Assembly (NCBI GenBank): GCA_903851045.1
Contig: CAINNF010000017.1
Coordinates: 1 to 34,352 of the forward strand
From: Candidatus Adlerbacteria bacterium
GTDB lineage: Bacteria > Patescibacteriota > Minisyncoccia > Phycocordibacterales > SBAW01
Reading direction: 5' to 3'
DNA: 34,352 bases
Each line of letters begins with the position of its first letter. Within the stretch, counting starts at the first letter, position 1. Position numbers and translations under genes: made by a program. Under the pieces are notes generated by a model. It saw nothing but the letters and a program-made list of their open reading frames with translations. It did not search any database and was not told where the DNA came from. Shown one piece after another: positions 15,217 through 34,352 of the stretch.

Positions 15217-15996
15217 ATGGAAAGCAAAAACACGCCCGCCGTGGACGGTCAACCCCACGCTACCCCAAAAGGCCATTTGCACCCCATGAGCGTCGCTATG
15301 CGCGACATTGCGGCTATATTTGGGAATCAGGGGTTTGGGATCGCCTATGGCCCCGAGCTTGAGGACGAGTTTCACAACTTCGATGCCCTCCGTGTGGCTG
15401 GCGACCATCCTGCACGAGACATGCAAGACACCTTTTGGACTCAGGAAAAGCCGCCGCGCGTGCCGCGCACCCACTGCACCTCTGTTACTGTGCGCGAACT
15501 CGAGCGGATGGCGAAAGAAGGACTTACTGAGTTGCGAATGATTAATCCAGGCAAGGTCTTCCGCAATGAGGCGACCGATGCGACACACGAAGCACAGTTT
15601 TACCAGCTCGACGGTTTTGCAGTTGGACCAGTAGGAACCGTGACACTCGCGCACCTTAAGGGGGTATGGACACGGTTCTATCAAGAATATATTGGACCCA
15701 ATGCAAAAATTCGTTTTCGCCCAAGTTACTTTCCGTTCACGGAGCCATCGGTCGAAGTCGACTTGTGGTTCGAAGCTCCAGGCAAGGAGGGGCGATGGTT
15801 GGAAATGTTTGGCGCTGGTATGTTGCACCCCGGAGTACTTGAGAACGCAGGACTTGACCCGAAGAAAGTAGCAGGTTTCGCATGGGGAGGGGGCTTAGAG
15901 CGTCTCATTATGGTGAAATACGGCGTACCTGATGTACGCTTTTTCCACAACGGTGACATACGATTCGTCTACGCTTTTGATGAAAAACAAATATGA
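15217..15996 (+). CDS. pheS: Phenylalanyl-tRNA synthetase alpha subunit, short form
   Basis: A 259-residue class II synthetase catalytic subunit. It lacks the N-terminal coiled coil that binds tRNA in longer forms (E. coli is about 327 residues). Family motifs are present: GHLHPMS near the N-terminus, RTHCTSVTVR in the place of the usual RTHTSPVQ-type motif 2 with changed residues, FRNEATDATHEAQFYQLDG, and GAGMLHPGVLENAG with GFAWGGGLERLIM as motif 3. It activates Phe with ATP and transfers it to tRNA-Phe in the cytoplasm as an alpha2beta2 enzyme with PheT. The stop overlaps the pheT start (ATGA, 15993-15996), giving translational coupling. Confidence 0.93.
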   Translation: MESKNTPAVDGQPHATPKGHLHPMSVAMRDIAAIFGNQGFGIAYGPELEDEFHNFDALRVAGDHPARDMQDTFWTQEKPPRVPRTHCTSVTVRELERMAKEGLTELRMINPGKVFRNEATDATHEAQFYQLDGFAVGPVGTVTLAHLKGVWTRFYQEYIGPNAKIRFRPSYFPFTEPSVEVDLWFEAPGKEGRWLEMFGAGMLHPGVLENAGLDPKKVAGFAWGGGLERLIMVKYGVPDVRFFHNGDIRFVYAFDEKQI

Positions 15997-17852
15997 AAGT
16001 CTCGCGCGCATGGCTACAAAATTATTTTGCTACAGAATTGCCCGATGGGCAGATTCTTGCTGACGCCTTTACGTTCCACTCGTTTGAAGTCGAAGAGCAG
16101 ACTGGTAACTTACTCGACCTGAAGGTACTCCCGGATAGGGCTGGGTACGCACTTTCGCATCGCGGCGTCGCCTATGAGCTCGCGGCAGCACTCGATGTGC
16201 CGATGAAAAAAGATCCACTACGAGAAACGCTGCCCAACTGGCCACAGTCAAACATGCTGTCGGTCGAAGTTGAAGATCCGAAAAAGTGTCTACGCTATAT
16301 CGGTGCGGTAGTGCGTGGTGTGACGGTGGGGTCCTCGCCTACGTGGCTCAAAGAGGCACTTGAGTCCGTTGGTCAACGCTCGATAAACAATGTCGTCGAC
16401 GCAACAAACTATGTGATGCTCAACATTGGTCAGCCACTGCACGCATTCGATGCGAGCAAGCTTGTTCAAAAGAACGAGATATACACGATTGGGGTACAAG
16501 AGGTGGAAGAACATAAGGTGTCTGATAAAAAGACCGGGATTCCGTTCACAGCGCTCGGAGGTGAAGACGGCTATCTATTGCCAGAAGGAACGCTCGTAAT
16601 CACCGATAAAAATAATGGTGATAAAATTCTTGGAGTCGCAGGTATTAAAGGGGGAGTCGTTGCAGAAGTTACGCCACACACAACGGACCTAATCATTGAA
16701 GCGGCGAATTTTGAAGGTACTAGTGTTCGTCGCACGGCGCAGAGGCTCAAATTGTTTACTGACGCGTCTGCTCGTTTTCAAAACCGACCATCGCCCGAAC
16801 TCGCCGCGTACGGTATGCGCGACGTGCTTGCACTCATCCAACAGGTGGCTGGAGGAGAAGTGGAAGGGGTTGTCGATATCTATCCTAACCCTACACAGAA
16901 TCTTCCGGTCTCCGTTACCACACAAAAAGTGAACGAACTTCTCGGCTCGTCGTTTTCGAGTGACGAAATAGGTACTGCGTTCAAGCGTCTCTCTCTGTCG
17001 ACAAAAATCAGCAACGATACGTTTACCGTGACTCCGCCGTTCGAGCGAATCGACCTCCTCATTCCAGAAGATCTGATAGAAGAAGTCGGTCGTATTCTTG
17101 GCTATGACCGCTTGCCGCCCGCACAGCTGCCGCCGCTTGCTGGTACGCCAGACCAAGCACGCTTTCGTGGTATTGAGCGCATGAAGGATCAACTGGTCGA
17201 GCAGGGCTTCACAGAAGTTTCAACACAATCGTTCGCCAAGAAAGGAGACATCGTGCTCGCTAACCCGCTTGATACAAAGAGGCCAGCGTTGCGCATCTCA
17301 TTGCAGGAAAATCTTGATGAGGCACTTGCTCAGGCGCAACATTATGCGCTCTTAGTGCTACCGCCAGGAGAGAAGCCGAAATTATTCGAAGTTGGTTCGG
17401 TTTTCCCAAAGGAAGGTGAACATGTCGAATTGCGTATGACCGAAGCGCCGAAAGCGTGGGGGAAAGATTTTCCAACTTTTGACAATCTGTCGAAGGCGAA
17501 TATGGAGGAATACGGCAATGGATACGAGCCAAAGCACTACACGCTCGCGCCATTCAAGCCTTTTTCTCTATATCCGTACATCGTGCGCGATGTTGCCCTG
17601 TGGGTACCACAGGGTACTGAGCCTGTCAAAGTGCTAAACCTCATTCGCGGTGAAGCAGGAGAGCTGTGTATCAAGATCTCCCTGTTCGATAAGTTCGAAA
17701 AAGCGGCGAAGGATGGTGTTCCAGCCAAGACCTCGCTCGCGTTTCGTCTCATCTTTCAGTCGTTCGAGCGAACACTCACCGACGACGACGCCAACACTGC
17801 GATGGAGAAGGCCTATGCAAAACTAAAATCCGAAGGATTTGAGATCAGATAA
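15993..17852 (+). CDS. pheT: Phenylalanyl-tRNA synthetase beta subunit without EMAP-like domain
   Basis: A 619-residue beta subunit, well short of the about 790 of E. coli. After the N-terminal motif (KVSRAWLQNYFA) the sequence goes within 50 residues to LDLKVLPDRAGYALSHRGVA, so the EMAP/OB tRNA-binding insertion is absent. B1, B3/B4 editing-type, B5 and catalytic-like domains follow, and the C-terminal FDX-ACB tRNA-binding domain occupies about 525-619. The ATGA overlap with pheS couples translation. The last codons (KSEGFEIR plus stop) recur in the downstream DNA at 18633 and 20015, which makes this 3' end a likely integration target. The A-rich tract after the stop also serves as the T-tract of an opposing terminator. 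Confidence 0.93.
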   Translation: MKVSRAWLQNYFATELPDGQILADAFTFHSFEVEEQTGNLLDLKVLPDRAGYALSHRGVAYELAAALDVPMKKDPLRETLPNWPQSNMLSVEVEDPKKCLRYIGAVVRGVTVGSSPTWLKEALESVGQRSINNVVDATNYVMLNIGQPLHAFDASKLVQKNEIYTIGVQEVEEHKVSDKKTGIPFTALGGEDGYLLPEGTLVITDKNNGDKILGVAGIKGGVVAEVTPHTTDLIIEAANFEGTSVRRTAQRLKLFTDASARFQNRPSPELAAYGMRDVLALIQQVAGGEVEGVVDIYPNPTQNLPVSVTTQKVNELLGSSFSSDEIGTAFKRLSLSTKISNDTFTVTPPFERIDLLIPEDLIEEVGRILGYDRLPPAQLPPLAGTPDQARFRGIERMKDQLVEQGFTEVSTQSFAKKGDIVLANPLDTKRPALRISLQENLDEALAQAQHYALLVLPPGEKPKLFEVGSVFPKEGEHVELRMTEAPKAWGKDFPTFDNLSKANMEEYGNGYEPKHYTLAPFKPFSLYPYIVRDVALWVPQGTEPVKVLNLIRGEAGELCIKISLFDKFEKAAKDGVPAKTSLAFRLIFQSFERTLTDDDANTAMEKAYAKLKSEGFEIR

Positions 17853-17860
17853 AAAAGAAA
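17825..17860 (+). repeat. Gene-tail repeat, copy 1 (pheT 3' end)
   Basis: These 36 bases encode KSEGFEIR and the pheT stop, followed by AAAAGAAA. Copies with the same reading frame and stop lie at 18633-18664 and 20015-20050. Copy 1 differs from copy 3 at four positions, all synonymous (GGA/GGG, ATC/ATT, AGA/CGG). This is the functional copy and the probable attachment site. Confidence 0.8.
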
Positions 17861-17861
17861 T

Positions 17862-17891
17862 CCCGCGCCGCCGAGGGTGTCGGGGCGCGGG
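17862..17891 (-). terminator. Terminator of cassette gene 1 (minus strand)
   Basis: CCCGCGCC (17862-17869) pairs with GGCGCGGG (17884-17891). On the minus strand the stem is followed by ATTTCTTTTTT, the complement of the A-rich end of the pheT tail repeat. Confidence 0.7.
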
Positions 17892-17925
17892 GCAGGATTC
17901 GTTGTGCAGATTGGGTGCTTTATGA

Positions 17926-18330
17926 CTAGAGGAGCGACCAGCGCTTGGTCCGCCGTTTGAATCTCACCACCCTGTTTTTGCGGAGGACTCTTTTGGGAAG
18001 TCCCTGCACCTTTGGGGAGTTGTAGGCTCCAAGCAATCCGATCATCTGTTCGACCAGTGCAGGGTCACTCGTGTCCCTATTCCTGGCAAACGCGCGCAGC
18101 TCTTTCACCGTATCGAACGGGTCCAGGAGGATCCGGTGAGCGACTTCTCCGTGGTTTCCGGTCACTGGTGCGAGTATTAGTGCGACTTCCGCATTCATGT
18201 GGTGCTGGGCAGATAGTCCCTCGGTAATTAATTCGACGACTTTCCTAACCGCCGCACGATCGTCCGCGGTCACTTGGTCTTTGGGTTTTTTTAATGCCAA
18301 CATCGCGTCAACATAGGGGTTGTTGGTCAT
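17926..18330 (-). CDS. Cassette gene 1: small basic protein of unknown function
   Basis: A 134-residue soluble protein. The N-terminal two thirds look helical (KPKDQVTADDRAAVRKVVEL); the C-terminus is strongly basic (residues about 112-131 rich in Arg and Lys), so nucleic-acid binding is possible. I recognise no family. The start at 18330 is chosen for AAGGA 9 nt upstream (in GCAACACAAGGA, a leader also seen before the gene at 19875); a longer frame to 18453 would run into the shared promoter. It reads toward pheT and ends at a terminator abutting the pheT stop. Promoter TTGACC/TATTTT (18425-18453) gives a leader of about 90 nt. Confidence 0.65.
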   Translation of the reverse strand: MTNNPYVDAMLALKKPKDQVTADDRAAVRKVVELITEGLSAQHHMNAEVALILAPVTGNHGEVAHRILLDPFDTVKELRAFARNRDTSDPALVEQMIGLLGAYNSPKVQGLPKRVLRKNRVVRFKRRTKRWSLL

Positions 18331-18424
18331 GTCACTTGTCCTTGTGTTGCATGCATAGCCACGCAAAGTACGACGCGGCCGAGAGTTGGTGAAGAGATCA
18401 AAGAGCCCGGTTCTCTCTGAGATC

Positions 18425-18453
18425 AAAATACATTCAACCTTGTCGTTGGTCAA
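18425..18453 (-). promoter_or_regulatory. Promoter of cassette gene 1
   Basis: On the minus strand TTGACC (18453-18448), 17-bp spacer, TATTTT (18430-18425). The same promoter occurs at 19379-19407. Confidence 0.55.
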
Positions 18454-18466
18454 GATAGAAGAAAAA

Positions 18467-18490
18467 AGCGCCGCCTGGGGTGGCGACGCT
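18467..18490 (-). terminator. Backbone terminator, copy A
   Basis: AGCGCCGCC and GGCGACGCT (one central mismatch) form the stem; the minus-strand product ends in TTTTTTC. It is identical to 19421-19444. Confidence 0.75.
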
Positions 18491-18501
18491 CGGTATGTCG
18501 G

Positions 18502-18590
18502 TCAGGCCGCGACCGCCTGAGGTTCTGCTTTGTACTTGGTGAGATATGCTCCAGAGACGTGCCCCACTTGCGTCTCTTCGTAGACTCTTT
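18502..18590 (-). pseudogene. Truncated relic of the cassette backbone gene
   Basis: On the minus strand this encodes VYEETQVGHVSGAYLTKYKA and then EPQAVAA with a TGA stop. It matches VYEETRA and SGAYLTKYKTEPQATAA of the intact gene at 19456-19875, with the middle about 35 residues deleted in frame. A stop codon and no start lie upstream, although the TTGACA of the former promoter survives near 18596. It shows that cassette 1 once carried the same backbone gene as cassette 2. Confidence 0.7.
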
Positions 18591-18632
18591 GAGTGTGTCA
18601 ATCGCTTCGAAAACGGTTTATACCTGACTAAC

Positions 18633-18664
18633 ATCCGAAGGGTATGAGATTCGGTAAAAGAAAA
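18633..18664 (+). repeat. Gene-tail repeat, copy 2 (displaced pheT 3' end)
   Basis: It encodes SEGYEIR and TAA in the pheT frame (one replacement, Phe to Tyr), then AAGAAAA. There is no gene body upstream of it; it is a detached gene end between two cassettes. Confidence 0.8.
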
Positions 18665-18688
18665 GGTCCTGGCGTGTTTTCCAGAACC
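18665..18688 (-). terminator. Terminator of cassette gene 2 (minus strand)
   Basis: GGTCCTGG (18665-18672) and CCAGAACC (18681-18688) pair with one G.U. The minus-strand product continues into TTTTCTTTT, part of the tail repeat. Confidence 0.6.
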
Positions 18689-18727
18689 CTCATGTTCACG
18701 ATGTTGCCTCACGACGCTCCACATATA

Positions 18728-19318
18728 TTATCGGTACGTCAGGCGTGTCAACAGTAGTAATAGCCACCCGAGCGGGCTGTAGTTAAAGAACACCCAACAA
18801 ACATCTTTGAGTTTGTGTTGCAGTGTTTCCGCGTACTCCTTGTCCGATTGATAGTATGCGTGCCGCGTCATCCTGTTGGTCTCTCCGGCGCACACGATGC
18901 ACGACATTATAAACGTAGTGAGTGCTGCAATGACTATGACTCTGTGTGCCAACCCAGTATCTAGTCCGAGATGTGGATATTCCCAATATGCCACACAGAT
19001 GATAATTACTAGTGCTTGGGCGTAGGTCAGCCATAAGCAACCGAAGATTTTCCACCACGTTATTCCTGTGGGACCTTCCTTATATGCCACTGTCTTCCTC
19101 CTGTCTGTCATTTTTTTTTGCATACAGAGCCACGTAAGGTATGACGAGGTCAGACCGCAGCCCACTGCGACACTGGCGAACAACGTCATGCTTTGCGAGG
19201 TGTTCAGAGAGATGCTCAGCACGATTGGTAGTATCCCGAGCGCGCATACGCCAGCGAACATAATCAAAAAGATCCCCGACCACAAACCCGCCCAGATTAG
19301 TGTCAGCGACATCACCAC
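18728..19318 (-). CDS. Cassette gene 2: polytopic membrane protein of unknown function
   Basis: About 196 residues with four or five hydrophobic segments (near 5-30, 33-60, 90-115, 125-145 and the C-terminal end) separated by short basic loops. I recognise no family. A GTG at 19318 lies 8 nt after GGAGG and follows a leader hairpin (19336-19362), the same order of hairpin, ribosome-binding site and start seen at other accessory genes here. ATG 19333, five codons upstream, overlaps that GGAGG and is the alternative start. Promoter TTGACC/TATTTT at 19379-19407. The protein sits where cassette 1 has its soluble basic protein, so this is the variable slot of the cassette. Confidence 0.65.
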   Translation of the reverse strand: MVMSLTLIWAGLWSGIFLIMFAGVCALGILPIVLSISLNTSQSMTLFASVAVGCGLTSSYLTWLCMQKKMTDRRKTVAYKEGPTGITWWKIFGCLWLTYAQALVIIICVAYWEYPHLGLDTGLAHRVIVIAALTTFIMSCIVCAGETNRMTRHAYYQSDKEYAETLQHKLKDVCWVFFNYSPLGWLLLLLTRLTYR

Positions 19319-19335
19319 GATTGTGTCCTCCATGA

Positions 19336-19362
19336 AAGCTCTTGGAAGCGGTCAAAGAGCTT
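19336..19362 (-). promoter_or_regulatory. Leader hairpin of cassette gene 2
   Basis: AAGCTCTT (19336-19343) and AAGAGCTT (19355-19362) pair perfectly around 11 nt, just upstream of the GGAGG site. Confidence 0.5.
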
Positions 19363-19378
19363 GGTTCCTCTAAAAATC

Positions 19379-19407
19379 AAAATACATTTAACCTTATCGT
19401 TGGTCAA
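19379..19407 (-). promoter_or_regulatory. Promoter of cassette gene 2
   Basis: Minus strand: TTGACC (19407-19402), 17-bp spacer, TATTTT (19384-19379). Confidence 0.55.
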
Positions 19408-19420
19408 GATAGAAGAAAAA

Positions 19421-19444
19421 AGCGCCGCCTGGGGTGGCGACGCT
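19421..19444 (-). terminator. Backbone terminator, copy B
   Basis: AGCGCCGCC (19421-19429) and GGCGACGCT (19436-19444) with one mismatch, then a minus-strand TTTTTTC tract. It ends the backbone gene 11 bp after its stop. Confidence 0.78.
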
Positions 19445-19455
19445 CGGTGTATTGG

Positions 19456-19875
19456 TCAGGCTGCGGTCGCCTGCGGCTCTGTTTTGTACTTGGTGAGATA
19501 TGCTCCAGACACGATCTCTGCATGGAGCTTGCGAAGAGATTCAAGATTGGGTGCCTTGATTCGGATGACTCGGACTGGCCCACCATCGAAACTGTTTCGA
19601 ATACTGAAAGCAAGGCGAGCTAGTCGCATGGTAGGAATCCTCCCACTCTTCCAAACCATGTCCTTTGCGGCATGATTGGCTCGCGTCTCTTCGTACACGA
19701 CGAAGCTAAACGGCACACATTGGTCTGGAATCAAAACCTCCCTCGTTGGATCTTGAAGGTCGGCTTCGGCACAGGCGAATGTATACCGAGTTTCCTTCGC
19801 AATCTTGAATCCTTGCCGATGCAGGACATTTGTTTGGCCTATATCGAGAAATCCGACTGAGTATTTGATCAACAT
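19456..19875 (-). CDS. Cassette backbone gene: unknown 139-residue protein
   Basis: A soluble 139-residue protein with mixed alpha/beta composition, no signal peptide and no membrane segment. I recognise no domain. The start at 19875 is supported by AAGGAG 8 nt upstream in the leader GCAACACAAGGAG, nearly the same as before the gene at 18330. The promoter TTGACA/TATCTT (17-bp spacer, 19937-19965) is flanked by an 8-bp inverted repeat (TTCACCTC and GAGGTGAA), a possible operator. A truncated version survives in cassette 1, so this is the constant gene of the cassette pair. It could have a role in cassette maintenance or movement, but it has no recombinase motif and this is only a guess from its constancy. 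Confidence 0.68.
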   Translation of the reverse strand: MLIKYSVGFLDIGQTNVLHRQGFKIAKETRYTFACAEADLQDPTREVLIPDQCVPFSFVVYEETRANHAAKDMVWKSGRIPTMRLARLAFSIRNSFDGGPVRVIRIKAPNLESLRKLHAEIVSGAYLTKYKTEPQATAA

Positions 19876-19936
19876 TAAGGCGACTCCTTGTGTTGCGCCC
19901 TCGAGTTCACCTCAAAGAGCATGTTTCGCCACAAGC

Positions 19937-19965
19937 AAGATACGTCTAAAAGTTATGTGTGTCAA
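19937..19965 (-). promoter_or_regulatory. Promoter of the backbone gene with flanking inverted repeat
   Basis: Minus strand TTGACA (19965-19960), 17-bp spacer, TATCTT (19942-19937). TTCACCTC lies on the upstream side and GAGGTGAA just downstream, a perfect 8-bp inverted repeat around the promoter. Confidence 0.6.
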
Positions 19966-20014
19966 TCGCAGCGAGGTGAATTCTCACTCTAAACGCAAAC
20001 AGTGTACACCATAT

Positions 20015-20050
20015 AAAATCCGAAGGGTTTGAGATTCGGTAAAAAAGAAA
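20015..20050 (+). repeat. Gene-tail repeat, copy 3 (displaced pheT 3' end)
   Basis: It encodes KSEGFEIR and TAA, then AAAAGAAA, with 32 of 36 bases matching the functional pheT end. All four differences are synonymous. Confidence 0.85.
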
Positions 20051-20056
20051 GGACTC

Positions 20057-20077
20057 CGAATGCAAATCATGCATTCG
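20057..20077 (-). terminator. Terminator of the pentapeptide-repeat gene (minus strand)
   Basis: CGAATGCA and TGCATTCG are perfect 8-bp arms around AATCA; on the minus strand a short spacer and CTTTCTTTTTT follow, again supplied by the tail repeat. Confidence 0.65.
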
Positions 20078-20109
20078 AAGCCCTTGTGCGCCGACGAGAT
20101 TGTCAGCGA

Positions 20110-20451
20110 CTAATCGCTGTGCATCTTCTCGACCGCCGCGGCAATCGCCTCGGCTATGTTGACGGTGGCGGTGCTATGGTCGGGGAGTGCAACAGTCACC
20201 GTTGCGCCAGCAAACCGGCAGCTGTCCGTAAATTTCGCATTCCTGAAATCGCAGCCTGCGAAAGTTGCGCCTCCGAAATTGCAATCGTTGTTGAAGTTGC
20301 TTCGGCCAAAACTGACGTTGCTAAACTTTGTATCACAGGGGAAGTAGCTGTTATGAACAATGCCGCCATTGCCACTGCCGTCCGCGGCGGTAACGGTGAG
20401 AACGTAGGGCACCGAGGGAATCTGGAGATCGAAACGCGCCCAATTATCCAT
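20110..20451 (-). CDS. Small pentapeptide-repeat-like protein
   Basis: A 113-residue protein. Residues about 35-75 follow the pentapeptide-repeat rhythm with a Phe or other bulky residue every fifth position (KFSNVSFGRSNFNNDCNF, then FAGCDFRNAKF), which should fold as a short right-handed quadrilateral helix. A C-terminal region with AIAAAVEKMH follows. The start at 20451 is set by AGGAGG 6 nt upstream. A leader hairpin (20473-20492) precedes the site. It lies next to gyrB and diverges from it. Some pentapeptide proteins mimic DNA and bind gyrase (Qnr, MfpA), but this one is short and the link is context only. It is probably a third, partly eroded member of the pheT-tail array. Confidence 0.65.
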   Translation of the reverse strand: MDNWARFDLQIPSVPYVLTVTAADGSGNGGIVHNSYFPCDTKFSNVSFGRSNFNNDCNFGGATFAGCDFRNAKFTDSCRFAGATVTVALPDHSTATVNIAEAIAAAVEKMHSD

Positions 20452-20472
20452 GATTATCCTCCTAGAACTCAT

Positions 20473-20593: not shown

Positions 20594-22747
20594 ATGGCAG
20601 ACGATAAGACAAAAAAAACGAAGAGTAATCCCGCCTCCGCTAAAGCTACGGCGGGCGCGTATGATGCTTCATCTATTACGGTGCTTGAGGGGCTCGAGGC
20701 GGTGCGTCGTCGCCCGGGTATGTACATCGGCACCACGGGTGTCGATGGTCTCCATCACTTGGTGTGGGAAATCTTCGATAACTCACGCGACGAGGCGATG
20801 GGTGGCTTTGCGGACGATATCGAAGTCGTGCTTCTTCCTGGAACTGAAAAAGGTAGTACTATCGTTCGTGTCGCCGACAACGGCCGCGGTATCCCGGTCG
20901 ATGTCCATAAGCAGACCAAGGTCTCGGCTCTGGAGACCATCATGACCACGCTCCACGCCGGCGGTAAGTTCGGTGGCGAGGGCTACAAGGTTTCCGGCGG
21001 TTTGCACGGCGTGGGCTCCTCGGTCGTGAACGCACTCTCGACGTTCCTTCGTGCCGAGGTACATCGCGACGGTGGTGTGCATATGCAAGACTACGTCATC
21101 GGCAAGAAGAAGAGTCCGGTCAAGAAGATCGGCACAAGCAAGCTCCACGGTACCGTCATCTCCTTTACGCCAGACGAAACCATCTTCAACACGGTCGAGT
21201 TCGACTTCGACAAGATTGTCTCACACTTGCGCGAGCAGGCATACTTGGTGAAGGGCTTGCGCATCACCATCATCGACGCGCGCGAGACGAAAGTGAAGAT
21301 CCCAGAGGCGGGCAAGGTGTTCTATATCCGTGACCTGCTCCATGACTCACCATCGCAGACGTTCTACTTCGAGGGTGGCCTGCGCTCGCTCATCTCCTTC
21401 CATAACCGCTACCAGAAGCCGGTGCACAAGAACATCTTCTATATAGAGAAAGAATTCATCCCGCCAGGTGGCACGGAGAAGGACTCTATCGATGTGGAGA
21501 TCGCGCTGCAGTATGTCGATGACATCACCTCACGCGTCTTCCCGTTCGCCAACAATATCTACAACAACGAAGGTGGCACCCATGTGACCGGCTTCCGCAC
21601 CGCGCTCACACGCACTGTCAATGCCTACGCGCGCAAAGCGAACGCGCTGAAGGAGAGCGAAGAGAACTTCACTGGCGACGACGTGCTTGAAGGTCTCACC
21701 GCGGTCGTTTCGGTCAAGTTGCGCGAGATCCAGTTCGAGGGTCAGACGAAGGGGAAGCTCGGCTCTGTCGAAGCGCGCGGCGCGGTGGATGCTATCTTTG
21801 CCGACACCTTCTCGACCTTCCTCGAAGAGAATCCTGACGACGCACGCGCGATAGTGTCGAAGTCTATCCTCGCGCTCAAAGCACGCAAGGCCGCGAAGGC
21901 GGCGAAGGACTCGGTGCTACGCAAAGGCGCGCTCGAAGGGTTTGGTCTGCCCGGCAAGCTCGCCGACTGTCAGAGTAAGGAGGCGTCAGAGTCAGAGGTA
22001 TTCATCGTAGAGGGAGATTCGGCAGGCGGTTCGGCCAAGCAAGGTCGCGACCGCAAGACCCAAGCGATACTGCCGCTGCGCGGGAAAATTCTCAACGTCG
22101 AGCGCGCGCGCCTGGACAAGATGCTCGCGTCACAAGAGATCAAATATCTCATTCTCGCGCTCGGTACTGCTATCGGCGACATCTTCGATATTTCCAAACT
22201 GCGCTATCATAAAATAATCATAGCGACCGATGCCGACGTCGATGGTGCGCACATCCGCACGCTTTTGCTGACGCTTTTCTTCCGTCACTTCCGCCCCGTT
22301 ATCGAAGGTGGCTTCCTTTACATCGCGCAGCCGCCGCTCTACAAGATCAAGCGCGGCAAGGAGATTATGTACGCATACTCCGACGAAGAGAAGATCCAAT
22401 TCCTCGGGCCCGACGCCGCAGACGCCGTTGAGGGCGAGCCCGAACCCGCCGACGCTGAAGCTTTGGCGGGCGAGGGAAGTACTGAAGAGGGCGAAGAAGC
22501 CGCCTCAGCCAAGGCTACGAGTGGCCGCGGGAAGATTCACATCCAGCGTTACAAAGGTCTTGGAGAAATGAACCCCGAGGAGTTGTGGGAGACGACGATG
22601 GATCCGGCCAACCGCGTGCTTAAGCAGGTGACCGTCGATGATGCAGCTGACGCCGACCGCGTCTTTGACATTCTCATGGGCGAGGATGTCTCATCCCGTA
22701 AGTCGTTCATTCAGTCGAACGCAAAACTTGCAAACCTTGATATCTAG
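20594..22747 (+). CDS. gyrB: DNA gyrase subunit B
   Basis: A 717-residue type IIA topoisomerase ATPase subunit. The GHKL ATPase domain shows RRRPGMYIG, DNSRDEAMGG, DNGRGIPVD and GGLHGVGSSVVNAL. The transducer follows. The TOPRIM domain shows IVEGDSAGGSAKQGRDRKTQA and DADVDGAHI with PLRGKILNVERA. The C-terminal IQRYKGLGEMNPEELWETTM segment binds GyrA. With GyrA it introduces negative supercoils using ATP. Two insertions carry a 26-bp palindromic element in frame: ASAKATAG after residue 12, and an acidic stretch near residues 615-655 just before IQRYKGLG. The stop shares CTAG with the convergent gene (22744-22747). Confidence 0.95.
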   Translation: MADDKTKKTKSNPASAKATAGAYDASSITVLEGLEAVRRRPGMYIGTTGVDGLHHLVWEIFDNSRDEAMGGFADDIEVVLLPGTEKGSTIVRVADNGRGIPVDVHKQTKVSALETIMTTLHAGGKFGGEGYKVSGGLHGVGSSVVNALSTFLRAEVHRDGGVHMQDYVIGKKKSPVKKIGTSKLHGTVISFTPDETIFNTVEFDFDKIVSHLREQAYLVKGLRITIIDARETKVKIPEAGKVFYIRDLLHDSPSQTFYFEGGLRSLISFHNRYQKPVHKNIFYIEKEFIPPGGTEKDSIDVEIALQYVDDITSRVFPFANNIYNNEGGTHVTGFRTALTRTVNAYARKANALKESEENFTGDDVLEGLTAVVSVKLREIQFEGQTKGKLGSVEARGAVDAIFADTFSTFLEENPDDARAIVSKSILALKARKAAKAAKDSVLRKGALEGFGLPGKLADCQSKEASESEVFIVEGDSAGGSAKQGRDRKTQAILPLRGKILNVERARLDKMLASQEIKYLILALGTAIGDIFDISKLRYHKIIIATDADVDGAHIRTLLLTLFFRHFRPVIEGGFLYIAQPPLYKIKRGKEIMYAYSDEEKIQFLGPDAADAVEGEPEPADAEALAGEGSTEEGEEAASAKATSGRGKIHIQRYKGLGEMNPEELWETTMDPANRVLKQVTVDDAADADRVFDILMGEDVSSRKSFIQSNAKLANLDI
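20630..20655. repeat. In-frame palindromic element in gyrB, N-terminal copy
   Basis: CCCGCC and GGCGGG arms enclose, three bases in, GCT-AA-AGC. It encodes PASAKATAG in the unstructured N-terminal tail. The same 26-base layout recurs at 22445-22470. Confidence 0.7.
22445..22470. repeat. In-frame palindromic element in gyrB, C-terminal copy
   Basis: CCCGCC, three bases, GCT-GA-AGC, three bases, GGCGGG: the same length and layout as 20630-20655. It encodes PADAEALAG within an acidic linker. Confidence 0.7.
22500..22525. repeat. Degenerate third copy of the palindromic element in gyrB
   Basis: CCGCC, three bases, GCC-AA-GGC, then a decayed right arm; it encodes ASAKATSG, one residue from the N-terminal copy. 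Confidence 0.5.
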
Positions 22748-30982: not shown

Positions 30983-31015
30983 TTACAACGCTCTTAGCGC
31001 ATCCGCAACGATGAG
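30983..31015 (-). repeat. Gene-tail repeat, displaced dnaE 3' end
   Basis: On the minus strand the codons read L-I-V-A-D-A-L-R-A-L then TAA. The functional dnaE ends L-S-I-V-A-D-A-L-K-A-L then TAA (32237-32202). Twenty-five of the last 30 bases match; differences are synonymous except Lys/Arg. A 20-bp core (30994-31013) has one mismatch. It is a detached dnaE tail about 1.2 kb from the gene. Confidence 0.82.
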
Positions 31016-31087
31016 TAGGTGCTTTCACAGGAGTCTATACACACGAACAACCTTGTGGTATGGTTTTTGACGGACATGGTGTCCGCA

Positions 31088-31146
31088 GGCCTTCGGGCCG
31101 TTCCCTCGGGAAGCGGGGGCTTCGGCCCCCAGACAAGGAGTTTGCC
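31088..31146 (+). promoter_or_regulatory. Leader with three tetraloop hairpins and ribosome-binding site
   Basis: GGCC-TTCG-GGCC (31088-31099), TTCC-CTCG-GGAA (31101-31112) and GGGGGC-TTCG-GCCCCC (31115-31130) are three successive perfect hairpins. AAGGAG (31135-31140) then lies 6 nt before ATG 31147. Confidence 0.65.
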
Positions 31147-32142
31147 ATGACGACCGTTGATCTCTCTGGCTATGGTGCGCAAGATGCTATGGATTATGCC
31201 GCGGCGCGGCGTAGGTTCGAGCGGAAGGCGCGTTTTCAAGACGATTCTAGCGCTTTGGATGTGCTGAGATACCTTGTTCTTGTCCTCGACGATGTTACTG
31301 TGGGCACGCTCGATCAAGACAATACTGCGCTTGGACAAACCGCGACAGAGCTACTCGAATTGGTACGTCGCCGTAGTGAATCTGGTCGAGTGTTTCCGCA
31401 GTGCAGGAACCTCCTGTGGCGTATCATTATCGACTGTTGGCTCACGGCGATCGCGGGTAGCGATGAAGAGAAGCGTCTCGCGGTATACCTGGTCGGCATG
31501 CCCGTGACGTCGCTGAAGAATGGTGACGTAGAACAACTCTTGCGTGACCGGATTGCGGTGCACTACCCTGGCGATCATCACGCCGAGTATCTTGCTAAAA
31601 AATGCTTCGCTTTTCTTGAGGCGGTTTCTCCTCTGACTCGGGGTGAGACGTACCATGCAATTGTGATGTGTGTTGCTAACAGGGCAGTGTCTCGCATAAG
31701 TTCGCTGCTGTTGTGTGGGATGGGTGGTACGTTCGGCCCTCTGCACGAATGCCGCGATGGGACCGCCGTTGGGCTCGTGCTTGAGTACCTCCAGGAGGGG
31801 GCCATCGGTCAACTCATCTCAACGGCCAAAGCAGCGCGAGTGCCGGTACCTGCGTTCTATGAACTTGGTGTGGAGTGGCGATACGGGGTACCGAATGTCA
31901 CCTTGTTTGGGGTGAGGGAAGTGACGTACCTGTGGCGCATTTCCATTGCGGACGGTGCAAGCCTCTCGACTATCGCATCGGATGTGGAATCAGCTGCGCG
32001 TCGTGCGCACGAAATCCTCTCTCAGTGGAAGGAGCGGCGAATCACACTACAGATCGCACCTCTCGGTATCACTATCAATCTGGTTGTGTACTGGGAGAAT
32101 CGCGACTTTGATTCGAAGTCGTCTGTGAGGATTGACGTCTAA
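31147..32142 (+). CDS. Cargo of the dnaE-tail cassette: unknown 331-residue protein
   Basis: A soluble 331-residue protein with no signal peptide and no membrane segment. The N-terminal 230 residues are mainly helical (VTVGTLDQDNTALGQTATEL; then LTRGETYHAIVMCVANRAVS); the last 100 are more beta-rich, ending WENRDFDSKSSVRIDV. I recognise no family and no catalytic motif. ATG 31147 is chosen for AAGGAG 6 nt upstream and the leader hairpins just before. It converges on dnaE and ends at a terminator 3-30 bp before the dnaE stop. As cargo of a cassette behind a replication gene it could serve defence or host interaction, but nothing in the sequence shows that. Confidence 0.7.
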   Translation: MTTVDLSGYGAQDAMDYAAARRRFERKARFQDDSSALDVLRYLVLVLDDVTVGTLDQDNTALGQTATELLELVRRRSESGRVFPQCRNLLWRIIIDCWLTAIAGSDEEKRLAVYLVGMPVTSLKNGDVEQLLRDRIAVHYPGDHHAEYLAKKCFAFLEAVSPLTRGETYHAIVMCVANRAVSRISSLLLCGMGGTFGPLHECRDGTAVGLVLEYLQEGAIGQLISTAKAARVPVPAFYELGVEWRYGVPNVTLFGVREVTYLWRISIADGASLSTIASDVESAARRAHEILSQWKERRITLQIAPLGITINLVVYWENRDFDSKSSVRIDV

Positions 32143-32172: not shown

Positions 32173-32203
32173 ACTCCCATCGGCAACGGTGGGAGTTATT
32201 TTT
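32173..32203 (+). terminator. Terminator of the dnaE-cassette gene
   Basis: ACTCCCA (32173-32179) and TGGGAGT (32190-32196) with a 10-nt loop, followed by TTATTTTT that runs into the dnaE stop region. Confidence 0.7.
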
Positions 32204-34352
32204 ATAGCGCCTTTAGCGCATCCGCGACGATGGAGAGTTCGCCGTTGCGGCTGTTTAATTTGCCTTTGATCGCTATGCAGGATTCGGGTTGGATGATGTC
32301 TTTGTGTTCGGTGTAGCTCTTGGGGAAGATGACCGCCTCTATCGAGCCGTCGAAGTCGGCGAGTTTGATGAACGCCATCTGGTCGCCCTTGCGGGTCAGG
32401 ATGACGCGCACGTCCTCTATCATGCCACCGGTGATGGTCACCATGCCGGGCTTCACTTTATCTTTCAGCTGACCGAGCGTCATGGTACGCTTGGACAGCA
32501 GGTCTTTGAACTTATCGAGCGGATGGCCCGAGACGTACAATCCAAGAAGCTCCTTCTCCCACAGCAGACGCTGCTCCATCGTGACCTCGGCCGCTTCGGG
32601 GAGTTTAAGTTCGGCGGGGCCTTCGTCGACGCTTGCGAAGAGCGAGTCTTGGGACGAGTCCTTGTTCGCATCACGCGTGTACTGCAGCAGGAGATCCATC
32701 GCTGCAAGCATCTGACCGCGCCCGTTGTCGGAGCGGGTCGGGTCGCCGAGCGAGTCGAGCGCGCCGCACTCGATGAGCGACTCGAGACCTTTTTTGTTGA
32801 GCGTCGTAGCTGCCACTCGAGTGAGAAAGTCGGCGAGCGACGTGAAGCGCCCGTTCGCTTTGCGCTCCGCGATGATAGCATCCGCGACGCCGACGCCGAA
32901 GTTCTTGATCGAGTAGAGGCCGAAGCGGATAGCTTGGGTGTGGACGACCGCGGGTGGCGGTGCTTCCTTTGTGAACTTCGCCTTTTTTTCCTCGGCAAGT
33001 TGTTTTGCTATCAGTGCGGCTCGGTCGTCTTGGTCCGGCGCAGCCGCAACAGGAAGTTCCTGAACAAAATAGTCTGGCCCGCCTGGCTGGCCTCCAGCCT
33101 GGACGGGAGACCCGAGGACTTTTTGGGAGGGAACTTCCTGTTGCGGCTGTGCGCTCTGTTCGAGTGGTACTACCGCGAAGTCACCGCAACTTTCGTTGAT
33201 ATCGGGCGCGAGGATCTGGATCTTCATGCGCTTACATTCCGTGACCATGATGGAGATCGTGTCGATGTTGCCCGACTCGGCGGTGAGCACCGCGGTCATG
33301 TATTCGACAGGGAAGTTTGCTTTAAGGTACGCGGTCTGATAGGCGACGCGCCCATAACTTGCGGAGTGTGCCTTGTTGAATCCGTACGCGGCGAACGGCT
33401 CGATCCACGCCCACACCTGCTGCGCCTTCTTCAGCGACCATTTCGAATGTTCGACACAGCCGTTGATGAACTTGTCCTTCTGCTTCGCCATCTCCTCGGG
33501 GATCTTCTTACCGACGGCCTTGCGGAACTTGTCGACCTCGCCCCAGGTATAGCCCGCGATCTGGTTGGCGATGATGAGCATGTCGTCTTGATACACGAGC
33601 GTGCCGTAGGTCTGCTTCAAAATTGGTTCGAGCGCTGGGTCGAGGTAGGAGATAAGGCTGGCGTCATGCTTGCGCTTGATGTAGTCGGGGATGAATTGCA
33701 TCGGGCCCGGGCGGTAGAGCGCCACCATAGCGTTGATGTCGTGGATGGTCGATGGTCGCAGCTCCACCAGCCACTTGGTCATGCCCGCGCCGTTGAGTTG
33801 GAAGGTGCCTTCGGTCTCGCCGCGTGCGAGCATTGCGAACGTCTTTCTATCATCGAGCGGAATGTCTTCGATATCGACTGTGATGCCGTGAATTTTTTCC
33901 ACGAGTGCGACCGCGCTCGCGAGGATGGTGAGGTTGCGGATACCGAGAAAGTCGAACTTGGTCAGTCCCACCCCGTCTTCACCGACGGAGTACATGTCGT
34001 ACTGCGTGATGATCTTGCCGCCTTTGGGGTCGAGCTGGAGTGGCGCATATTCGACGAGCGGTCGGGGAGCGATGACGACGCCCGCCGCGTGCACGCCGAC
34101 GTGGCGCGCGCAGCCTTCGATCTTCATCCCGAGGTCGATGATTTCTTTTGTCTCGTCTTCGCTGTCGTACATTTTCTTGAGCTCAGGATTCTCCTCGAGC
34201 GCACGTTCGAGCGTCATCGGGAATCCTTGCGAACCGAAGGGGATCTCCTTCGCGATATGGTCGCCGATGCCGTAGGGGTAGCGAAGCGCGCGCGCGACGT
34301 CGCGGACGACGCCGCGCGCGAGCATGGTACCGAAGGTCCCTATCTGGGCGAC
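32202..34352 (-). CDS. dnaE: DNA polymerase III alpha subunit (C-terminal 716 residues, partial)
   Basis: The frame runs off the window end, so the PHP domain and first catalytic Asp pair are missing. It opens VAQIGTFGTMLARGVVRDVA, a polymerase palm/fingers motif of bacterial replicases. The third catalytic Asp is in LTKFDFLGIRNLT. MVALYRPGPM and AYGFNKAHSASYG are fingers motifs. The tandem helix-hairpin-helix region (AIRFGLYSIKNFGVG; LADFLTRV) and the OB fold (VTITGGMIEDVRVILTRKGD to the end) follow. It synthesises DNA at the replication fork. About 60 extra residues between DFAVVP and AIRFGLY include a 105-bp palindromic element in frame. The last codons recur at 30983. Confidence 0.95.
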   Translation of the reverse strand, partial: VAQIGTFGTMLARGVVRDVARALRYPYGIGDHIAKEIPFGSQGFPMTLERALEENPELKKMYDSEDETKEIIDLGMKIEGCARHVGVHAAGVVIAPRPLVEYAPLQLDPKGGKIITQYDMYSVGEDGVGLTKFDFLGIRNLTILASAVALVEKIHGITVDIEDIPLDDRKTFAMLARGETEGTFQLNGAGMTKWLVELRPSTIHDINAMVALYRPGPMQFIPDYIKRKHDASLISYLDPALEPILKQTYGTLVYQDDMLIIANQIAGYTWGEVDKFRKAVGKKIPEEMAKQKDKFINGCVEHSKWSLKKAQQVWAWIEPFAAYGFNKAHSASYGRVAYQTAYLKANFPVEYMTAVLTAESGNIDTISIMVTECKRMKIQILAPDINESCGDFAVVPLEQSAQPQQEVPSQKVLGSPVQAGGQPGGPDYFVQELPVAAAPDQDDRAALIAKQLAEEKKAKFTKEAPPPAVVHTQAIRFGLYSIKNFGVGVADAIIAERKANGRFTSLADFLTRVAATTLNKKGLESLIECGALDSLGDPTRSDNGRGQMLAAMDLLLQYTRDANKDSSQDSLFASVDEGPAELKLPEAAEVTMEQRLLWEKELLGLYVSGHPLDKFKDLLSKRTMTLGQLKDKVKPGMVTITGGMIEDVRVILTRKGDQMAFIKLADFDGSIEAVIFPKSYTEHKDIIQPESCIAIKGKLNSRNGELSIVADALKAL
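33043..33147. repeat. 105-bp nested inverted repeat inserted in frame in dnaE
   Basis: GCCGCAACAGGAAGTTCC (33043-33060) and its exact complement (33130-33147) are 18-bp perfect terminal inverted repeats. Inside, further arms pair (GTC..GAC, CCCG..CGGG, GGCTGG..CCAGCC). The length is 35 codons exactly, and both sides read through. It encodes the unusual stretch VPSQKVLGSPVQAGGQPGGP within a surface linker of DnaE. It resembles a miniature palindromic element of the MITE or Rickettsia-palindrome kind. Confidence 0.8.

Follow-up and report, generated by a model that had tools for sequence, protein, structure and literature searches.

The DNA studied here is a contig of Candidatus Adlerbacteria (CAINNF010000017.1, assembly GCA_903851045.1; the window is its whole stretch of 34,352 nt), in which pheT, the gene for the beta subunit of phenylalanyl-tRNA synthetase (PheRS), is followed by gyrB. 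The last ~29-31 nt of pheT are present three times, once as the gene's own end and twice more before gyrB, on the same strand and in register, and the copies enclose two small inserts, as had been claimed in the original prediction on this DNA. Taking into account the other genes at which the same architecture was found, the total was twelve tail pairs at nine genes (pheT, secY, rplB, dnaE, Mur ligase, truB, rpsG, NUDIX-like, and gyrB) in six genomes, the cargo between the tails ranging from a lone hairpin to small genes, among them HicAB and PemK/MazF-like toxins. We describe these arrays as tail duplications made by recombination, with stacked cassettes in a layout like that of cis-mobilizable elements (CIMEs). 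Regarding their origin, we give roughly an even chance to the serial capture of small DNA molecules carrying an orthologous gene tail, by single crossover, probably through short-homology recombination in a competent lineage. Patescibacteria are streamlined yet still gaining genes, and entry without breaking their compact operons is puzzling. The ~30-nt scars behind pheT, secY, rplB, dnaE, gyrB, and others would form a readable fossil record of gene entry, telling where each insertion happened, in what order, and which of the tails came from outside, and they suggest short tail homology as an insertion rule that can be tested.

The in-register similarity of the pheT tails spans positions 17824-17860, 18629-18665, and 20014-20050, and their left edges are abrupt. 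Copies 1 and 3 differ at four nucleotides, all synonymous (GGA/GGG, ATC/ATT, AGA/CGG), in agreement with the prediction. Copy 2, for which a single conservative replacement had been claimed, actually reads TSEGYEIR versus KSEGFEIR, with two residues changed (K to T at the copy edge, F to Y). A pattern search of the whole study genome (1.25 Mb in 25 contigs, 96% complete) with 3 mismatches allowed matched copies 1 and 3 and nothing elsewhere, copy 2 being over the mismatch limit; the repeat is gene-specific and not a common dispersed sequence. Assigning copy 3 to a promoter was considered and discarded, given that this fits the sequence to the left of the scar and fails to explain the codons of the copy.

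Measured from copy to copy, the inserts are 805 bp (insert 1) and 1385 bp (insert 2), consistent with the tandem cassettes of about 0.8 and 1.4 kb that had been predicted. Gene A stands with a decayed gene X in insert 1, and gene B with an intact gene X in insert 2. All of them, together with the pentapeptide-repeat gene that follows, are on the minus strand and run toward pheT, with terminator-like hairpins after them; as anticipated, no recombinase was recognised among genes A, B, and X, nor any known family. A 169-nt block, 86-88% identical, occurs in both inserts and contains the promoter of the left gene and the terminator and 3′ end of gene X, and for this reason the inserts are considered to be related, with different left genes. 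No match for gene B was found in the other genomes of the family (41 genomes including the study genome), gene X was not detected in any of 396 other genomes of the order or in viral contigs, and gene A had no match among the pheT loci of relatives in a local comparison. Gene X was rejected as a mobility gene on the basis of this absence and of its lack of a family match. The features of the window are collected in Table 1.

Table 1. Features of the pheT and dnaE arrays in the window.
Feature	Position	Strand	Basis
pheT (PheRS beta), host gene	15993..17852	+	Pfam B3_4, B5, FDX-ACB; regional BLAST
Tail copy 1, working pheT 3′ end, right half CAGATAA foreign-looking	17824..17852	+	sequence comparison
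Hairpin/terminator directly after copy 1	17861..17894	.	fold -29.4 kcal/mol, 70 nt past stop
Gene A, 134 aa orphan toward pheT	17926..18330	-	no family match
169-nt block, first copy: gene A promoter, terminator and 3′ end of decayed gene X′	18391..18559	-	
Tail copy 2 (TSEGYEIR and stop), scar ending insert 1	18629..18657	+	
Gene B terminator	18662..18691	-	
Gene B, 201 aa orphan, probably membrane protein	18728..19333	-	
169-nt block, second copy: gene B promoter, gene X terminator and 3′ end	19345..19513	-	
Gene X, 139 aa orphan, decayed copy in insert 1	19456..19875	-	
Tail copy 3, displaced native tail	20014..20042	+	18-nt identity to single tails of G005, G016
Pentapeptide-gene terminator	20049..20085	-	
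Pentapeptide-repeat gene, orthologue behind single tail in G005	20110..20472	-	
gyrB, conserved right neighbour	20594..22747	+	
dnaE tail copy 2 (IVADALRAL and stop), native-like scar	30983..31013	-	
360-aa orphan toward dnaE, between both dnaE tails	31060..32142	+	
dnaE tail copy 1, working	32202..32232	-	
dnaE (Pol III alpha) 3′ part, second host gene in the window	32202..34352	-	Pfam

The old and the incoming tail of pheT could be distinguished by comparison with relatives, whose genomes and locus records carry G- and L-numbers, respectively; nearly all of these genomes are metagenome-assembled. In G005 there is a single pheT tail, identical to copy 3 over its last 18 nt (18/18), with an orthologous pentapeptide gene and then gyrB behind it, and the single tail of G016 shows the same 18-nt identity. 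Considering that these single tails equal the distal copy, copy 3 is the old, native end that was displaced and copy 1 the incoming tail; the working end of pheT looks foreign. An independent pheT case was detected in G012, where the real tail is followed by a 40-nt hairpin and a second tail. When the flanks of this insert are joined at the shared GAGATC, the result is ...AAAGGGTTCGAGATCAGATAA, which is the tail of G034.

The regional BLAST comparison of the locus revealed mixed affinities. pheS and residues 1-500 of pheT were nearest to Kaiserbacteria-type loci, for example L093 (78% for pheS and 61-78% for the pheT regions), and the native-like C-terminal domain (residues 500-619) was nearest to G016 (71%). 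Of the flanking genes, gyrB had its closest counterpart in G005 (80%) and the upstream glycosyltransferase in Adlerbacteria. By these affinities pheT (window positions 15217-17852 with pheS) seems to be a chimera in which recombination across lineages joined, close to residue 500, a Kaiserbacteria-like part to a C-terminal domain that is Adlerbacteria-like, as are both flanks. The mosaic makes homologous recombination between lineages directly visible in this region.

Among 31 relatives in which pheT and gyrB are neighbours, the gap was of 129 nt or less (empty) in 17 and of 224-2302 nt in 14, and most of the larger gaps hold small genes, mainly on the opposite strand, which identifies the site as a hotspot. 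Empty and variable sites were expected from the prediction, and the arrangement is indeed not fixed among relatives. In the gaps of L040, L043, L049, and L066 we observed recurrent small, probably secreted proteins with a CxSACxL-like motif, present as a tandem pair in L043. It was also observed that in G004, G008, G015, G033, G042, and G046 the pheT match is limited to the C-terminal anticodon-binding domain, in short frames of mostly 380-400 aa, and their PheRS may be of another kind.

Detached tails of other housekeeping genes, also proposed beforehand, were found at eight further genes. The scan was carried out on ~0.74 Mb of the study genome (59%, in slightly overlapping stretches) and ~2 Mb of relatives, and its target was any gene whose last codons reappear downstream. 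The names dnaE, secY, Mur ligase, pheT, and gyrB are based on Pfam, and rplB, rpsS, truB, rpsG, NUDIX, and thrS were read from the sequence alone. The study genome is larger than those of its relatives (1.25 Mb versus 0.5-0.9 Mb). Besides dnaE (Table 1), it presents a copy of the secY tail 529 nt downstream of the gene, with HicB and HicA in between, and a decayed third copy at 1504 nt, so that the distance from secY to adenylate kinase is ~2.8 kb including the array; in 11 relatives the secY site is empty, the next gene lying within 1-80 nt. The rplB tail is repeated 662 nt downstream, inside the ribosomal operon and before rpsS, and that of the Mur ligase gene 787 nt downstream. A system specific to pheT was ruled out by these cases.

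In the relatives, rplB of G005 has a second tail whose similarity extends into the terminator. The gap between rplB and rpsS is 70-107 nt in the two emptiest Adlerbacteria and from several hundred to more than 1000 nt in others; the first rplB cargo is common to G005 and G016, and the contents behind it differ. In G016, a HicA toxin and a probable HicB lie between the tails of rpsG, and a PemK/MazF-like toxin between those of the NUDIX-like gene. A copy of the truB tail was found downstream of this gene in G006, and the insert at gyrB of L167, a Kaiserbacteria-type record, is only a perfect palindrome. Several matches were discarded: L152 corresponds to internal repeats of one gene, L208/L209/L261 to repetitive or antisense frames, L106/L122 to long exact repeats, and L262 to a doubtful 25-nt palindromic match.

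The codon changes over the twelve pairs were 34 synonymous and 8 nonsynonymous, against a neutral expectation of 23% synonymous (p = 3e-15). This bias indicates that the two tails of each pair each have a history as a real gene end, in different lineages, as the prediction had maintained for the pheT copies on the grounds of their synonymous differences. Upstream control scans of the same genes gave almost only paralogues and repetitive frames, with no match at pheT, and of 4729 random tail/downstream pairs 13 reached the threshold, apparently via overlapping stretches. The copies of pheT, rplB, secY, and dnaE in the study genome differ at 16 positions, and at 13 of these it is the distal copy that matches G016/G005 (counted by eye; one-sided sign test ~0.01). 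The scars comprise 18-66 nt before the stop, mostly 27-45, in a scan able to show longer ones, and no motif common to the nine gene tails was seen by eye.

In the mechanism that we favour, a small DNA molecule would bring an orthologous tail of ~30 nt or more together with a hairpin and often a small gene. One recombination between the incoming and the resident tail would then give the order host gene, foreign tail, cargo, and old tail, by which the host gene would regain a complete but foreign ending and the old ending would remain as a scar; repeated rounds would stack the cassettes (pheT twice, secY twice). We infer that the crossover was of the Campbell type and involved a molecule that was circular or had re-circularised. 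Its driver would be short-homology recombination between relatives, probably of the RecA/competence type, and not a site-specific integrase. The arrays resemble a Campbell single crossover via short homology in the order tail, insert, and tail, in the hybrid tails, and in the restored gene, and an insert flanked by two tail copies whose flanks rejoin to an empty site was found in G012, with G034 as the counterpart. It is noted that the laboratory cases of single crossover duplicate 109-950 bp (PMC3240628), whereas here 18-66 nt are duplicated between diverged sequences. The restriction to 3′ ends may reflect selection, because only a restored 3′ end keeps an essential gene intact. As regards uptake of DNA, Com genes are conserved across the phyla of the candidate phyla radiation, and Saccharibacteria transform via ComEC (PMC10633639).

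Several points weigh against this mechanism. Some 30 nt of homology, 10-15% of it mismatched, is a poor substrate for RecA, and the competence of the study genome is only putative, the single trace being a metallo-beta-lactamase-domain protein compatible with the ComEC C-terminus. Most inserts between pheT and gyrB in the relatives have no recognisable second tail: among the ~110 pheT locus records (two sets, partly duplicated between them), it is still seen only in the study genome and G012, and no degenerate tails above background were detected in the other inserts. Either scars decay or such scarless inserts arise differently. No circular form, same-species empty genome, or donor was seen. 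A purely homology-driven process might also make duplications of gene starts, and the same kind of search gave no convincing 5′-heads, which selection could remove. Finally, the scars are short and fairly narrow in length, when homology-driven events should leave longer duplications too; this is a hint of a dedicated mechanism. It is accordingly conceivable, albeit tentatively, that Paceibacteria possess a dedicated cassette system in which copied 3′ tails of essential genes serve as interchangeable, self-restoring addresses and toxin-antitoxin (TA) and orphan genes travel from species to species with neither a self-encoded nor a site-specific integrase; ~30 nt of homology, and not a motif, would form the address.

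The main rival, to which we assign about half the probability of the favoured mechanism, is a sequence-tolerant recombinase acting in trans (the single tyrosine recombinase, a large serine recombinase, or an unknown one) that would insert recombinase-less circular cassettes, the attachment (att) site being the copied gene tail, perhaps read as a structure with the following hairpin. The short and narrow scars are in its favour, and so are the inserts made of a hairpin only (pheT of G012 and the gyrB palindrome of L167), the TA cargo, which resembles that of integron arrays, and the confinement to 3′ ends. The resolvase-family genes, mostly in long frames resembling large serine recombinases, could also supply such an enzyme: they are uneven, with 8 in the study genome and 12 in G016, but none in G012, G014, G034, and others. 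Serine recombinases were rejected as the agent on this basis, since G012 bears a scar. Similarly, a tyrosine recombinase is present in 39 of 41 genomes, nearly always exactly one, whether scars are present or not; that of the study genome, matched at the Phage_integrase level, is away from the arrays, and the idea of a tyrosine recombinase close to them was discarded, there being one per genome and located elsewhere. No integrase or recombinase was found inside the arrays, and no integrase-bearing element was recognised at the pheT site in the locus records. The lack of any visible motif shared by the nine unrelated tails, the independence between recombinase count and scars, and G012 without a resolvase-family gene make a site-specific integrase hard to reconcile with the data. 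The hairpins after most tails have differing sequences and look like ordinary terminators; no attC was seen among them, with no attC model applied.

A phage or plasmid source of the pheT tail was likewise rejected, as a degenerate pattern in IMG/VR gave two chance matches, one within an unrelated coding frame and the other between genes of an apparent tailed phage; the secY and rplB tails had no match in the IMG/VR viral contigs. Of the original proposal, integration at the 3′ end of a housekeeping gene with an incoming tail that restores it was upheld, but not the classical integrative element with one att site, considering the nine genes with no common motif seen, the remote tyrosine recombinase, and the lack of a viral carrier.

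Homology-facilitated illegitimate recombination (HFIR), known from Acinetobacter and Streptococcus pneumoniae, would consist here in one-ended homologous recombination of transforming linear DNA, with an illegitimate joint between the donor end and a point just within the end of the resident gene. We regard it as improbable, although it traps foreign DNA at the border of a homologous segment and accounts for the many target genes, the foreign working tail with a native scar, and the cargo behind the same genes in relatives. Random joints predict scars of every length. In addition, the classical product is an insertion with the removal of ~1 kb of resident DNA, while a molecule that was degraded at its ends and re-circularised leaves, after a single crossover, a second copy of the homologous end (PMC3240628); since here the resident tail is duplicated, the scars fit the latter and not HFIR.

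A duplication of the host's own tail, at a target site or in local tandem (transposon-like or by slippage) and with later divergence, could explain the flanking direct repeats, and the 169-nt block suggests that part of the pheT array may be a tandem duplication with the left gene replaced. This is, however, very unlikely as the general explanation: an unselected copy should gain nonsynonymous changes, contrary to the 34:8 observed, and at pheT it is the unselected copy 3 that retained the tail of the clade. There is no transposase, and target-site-duplicating transposons leave identical duplications of fixed length, in contrast to these synonymously diverged scars. An assembly artefact or chance repeats can practically be dismissed, for even if nearly all the genomes are metagenome-assembled, the arrays were seen in independent genomes from different projects, the copies sit within long contigs, and the upstream control scans are almost empty.

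By comparison with known systems, the arrays share with the accretion of CIMEs and of integrative and conjugative or mobilizable elements (ICE/IME) in streptococci the direct repeats at gene ends, the restored gene, the absence of recombination genes, and the stacked units. CIMEs, however, derive from an ICE/IME whose integrase fits one site, and here there are nine unrelated genes, units of 0.06-1.4 kb, and no cognate integrase element found. Integron cassettes likewise form stacks of very small units that carry TA pairs and orphan genes; the arrays differ from them in having no second tyrosine recombinase and no single platform, and in carrying their own promoters, mostly in opposite orientation to the host gene. 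Since the features that define these classes were in part absent and in part not clearly shown, we did not file the arrays under CIMEs, integrons, or HFIR products. A description of tail-scar arrays at many genes was not found in the literature searched, of which the coverage was incomplete.

Two further observations were made at the host genes. In L314, on the minus strand ~100 nt before the second rplB tail (G005), there is a stretch ending in ...DTSVYSRVLTSAEIQSLFAAGRSARI and a stop, by its look the C-terminal end of a LamG-type gene, so it looks like another detached gene end. The dnaE gene of the study genome contains an insertion of ~70 residues (window ~32930-33170) which is absent in relatives; short similar stretches (53-77% over 22-43 aa) are found in other frames of this genome on C7, C9, C12, and C18 and resemble a dispersed coding repeat.

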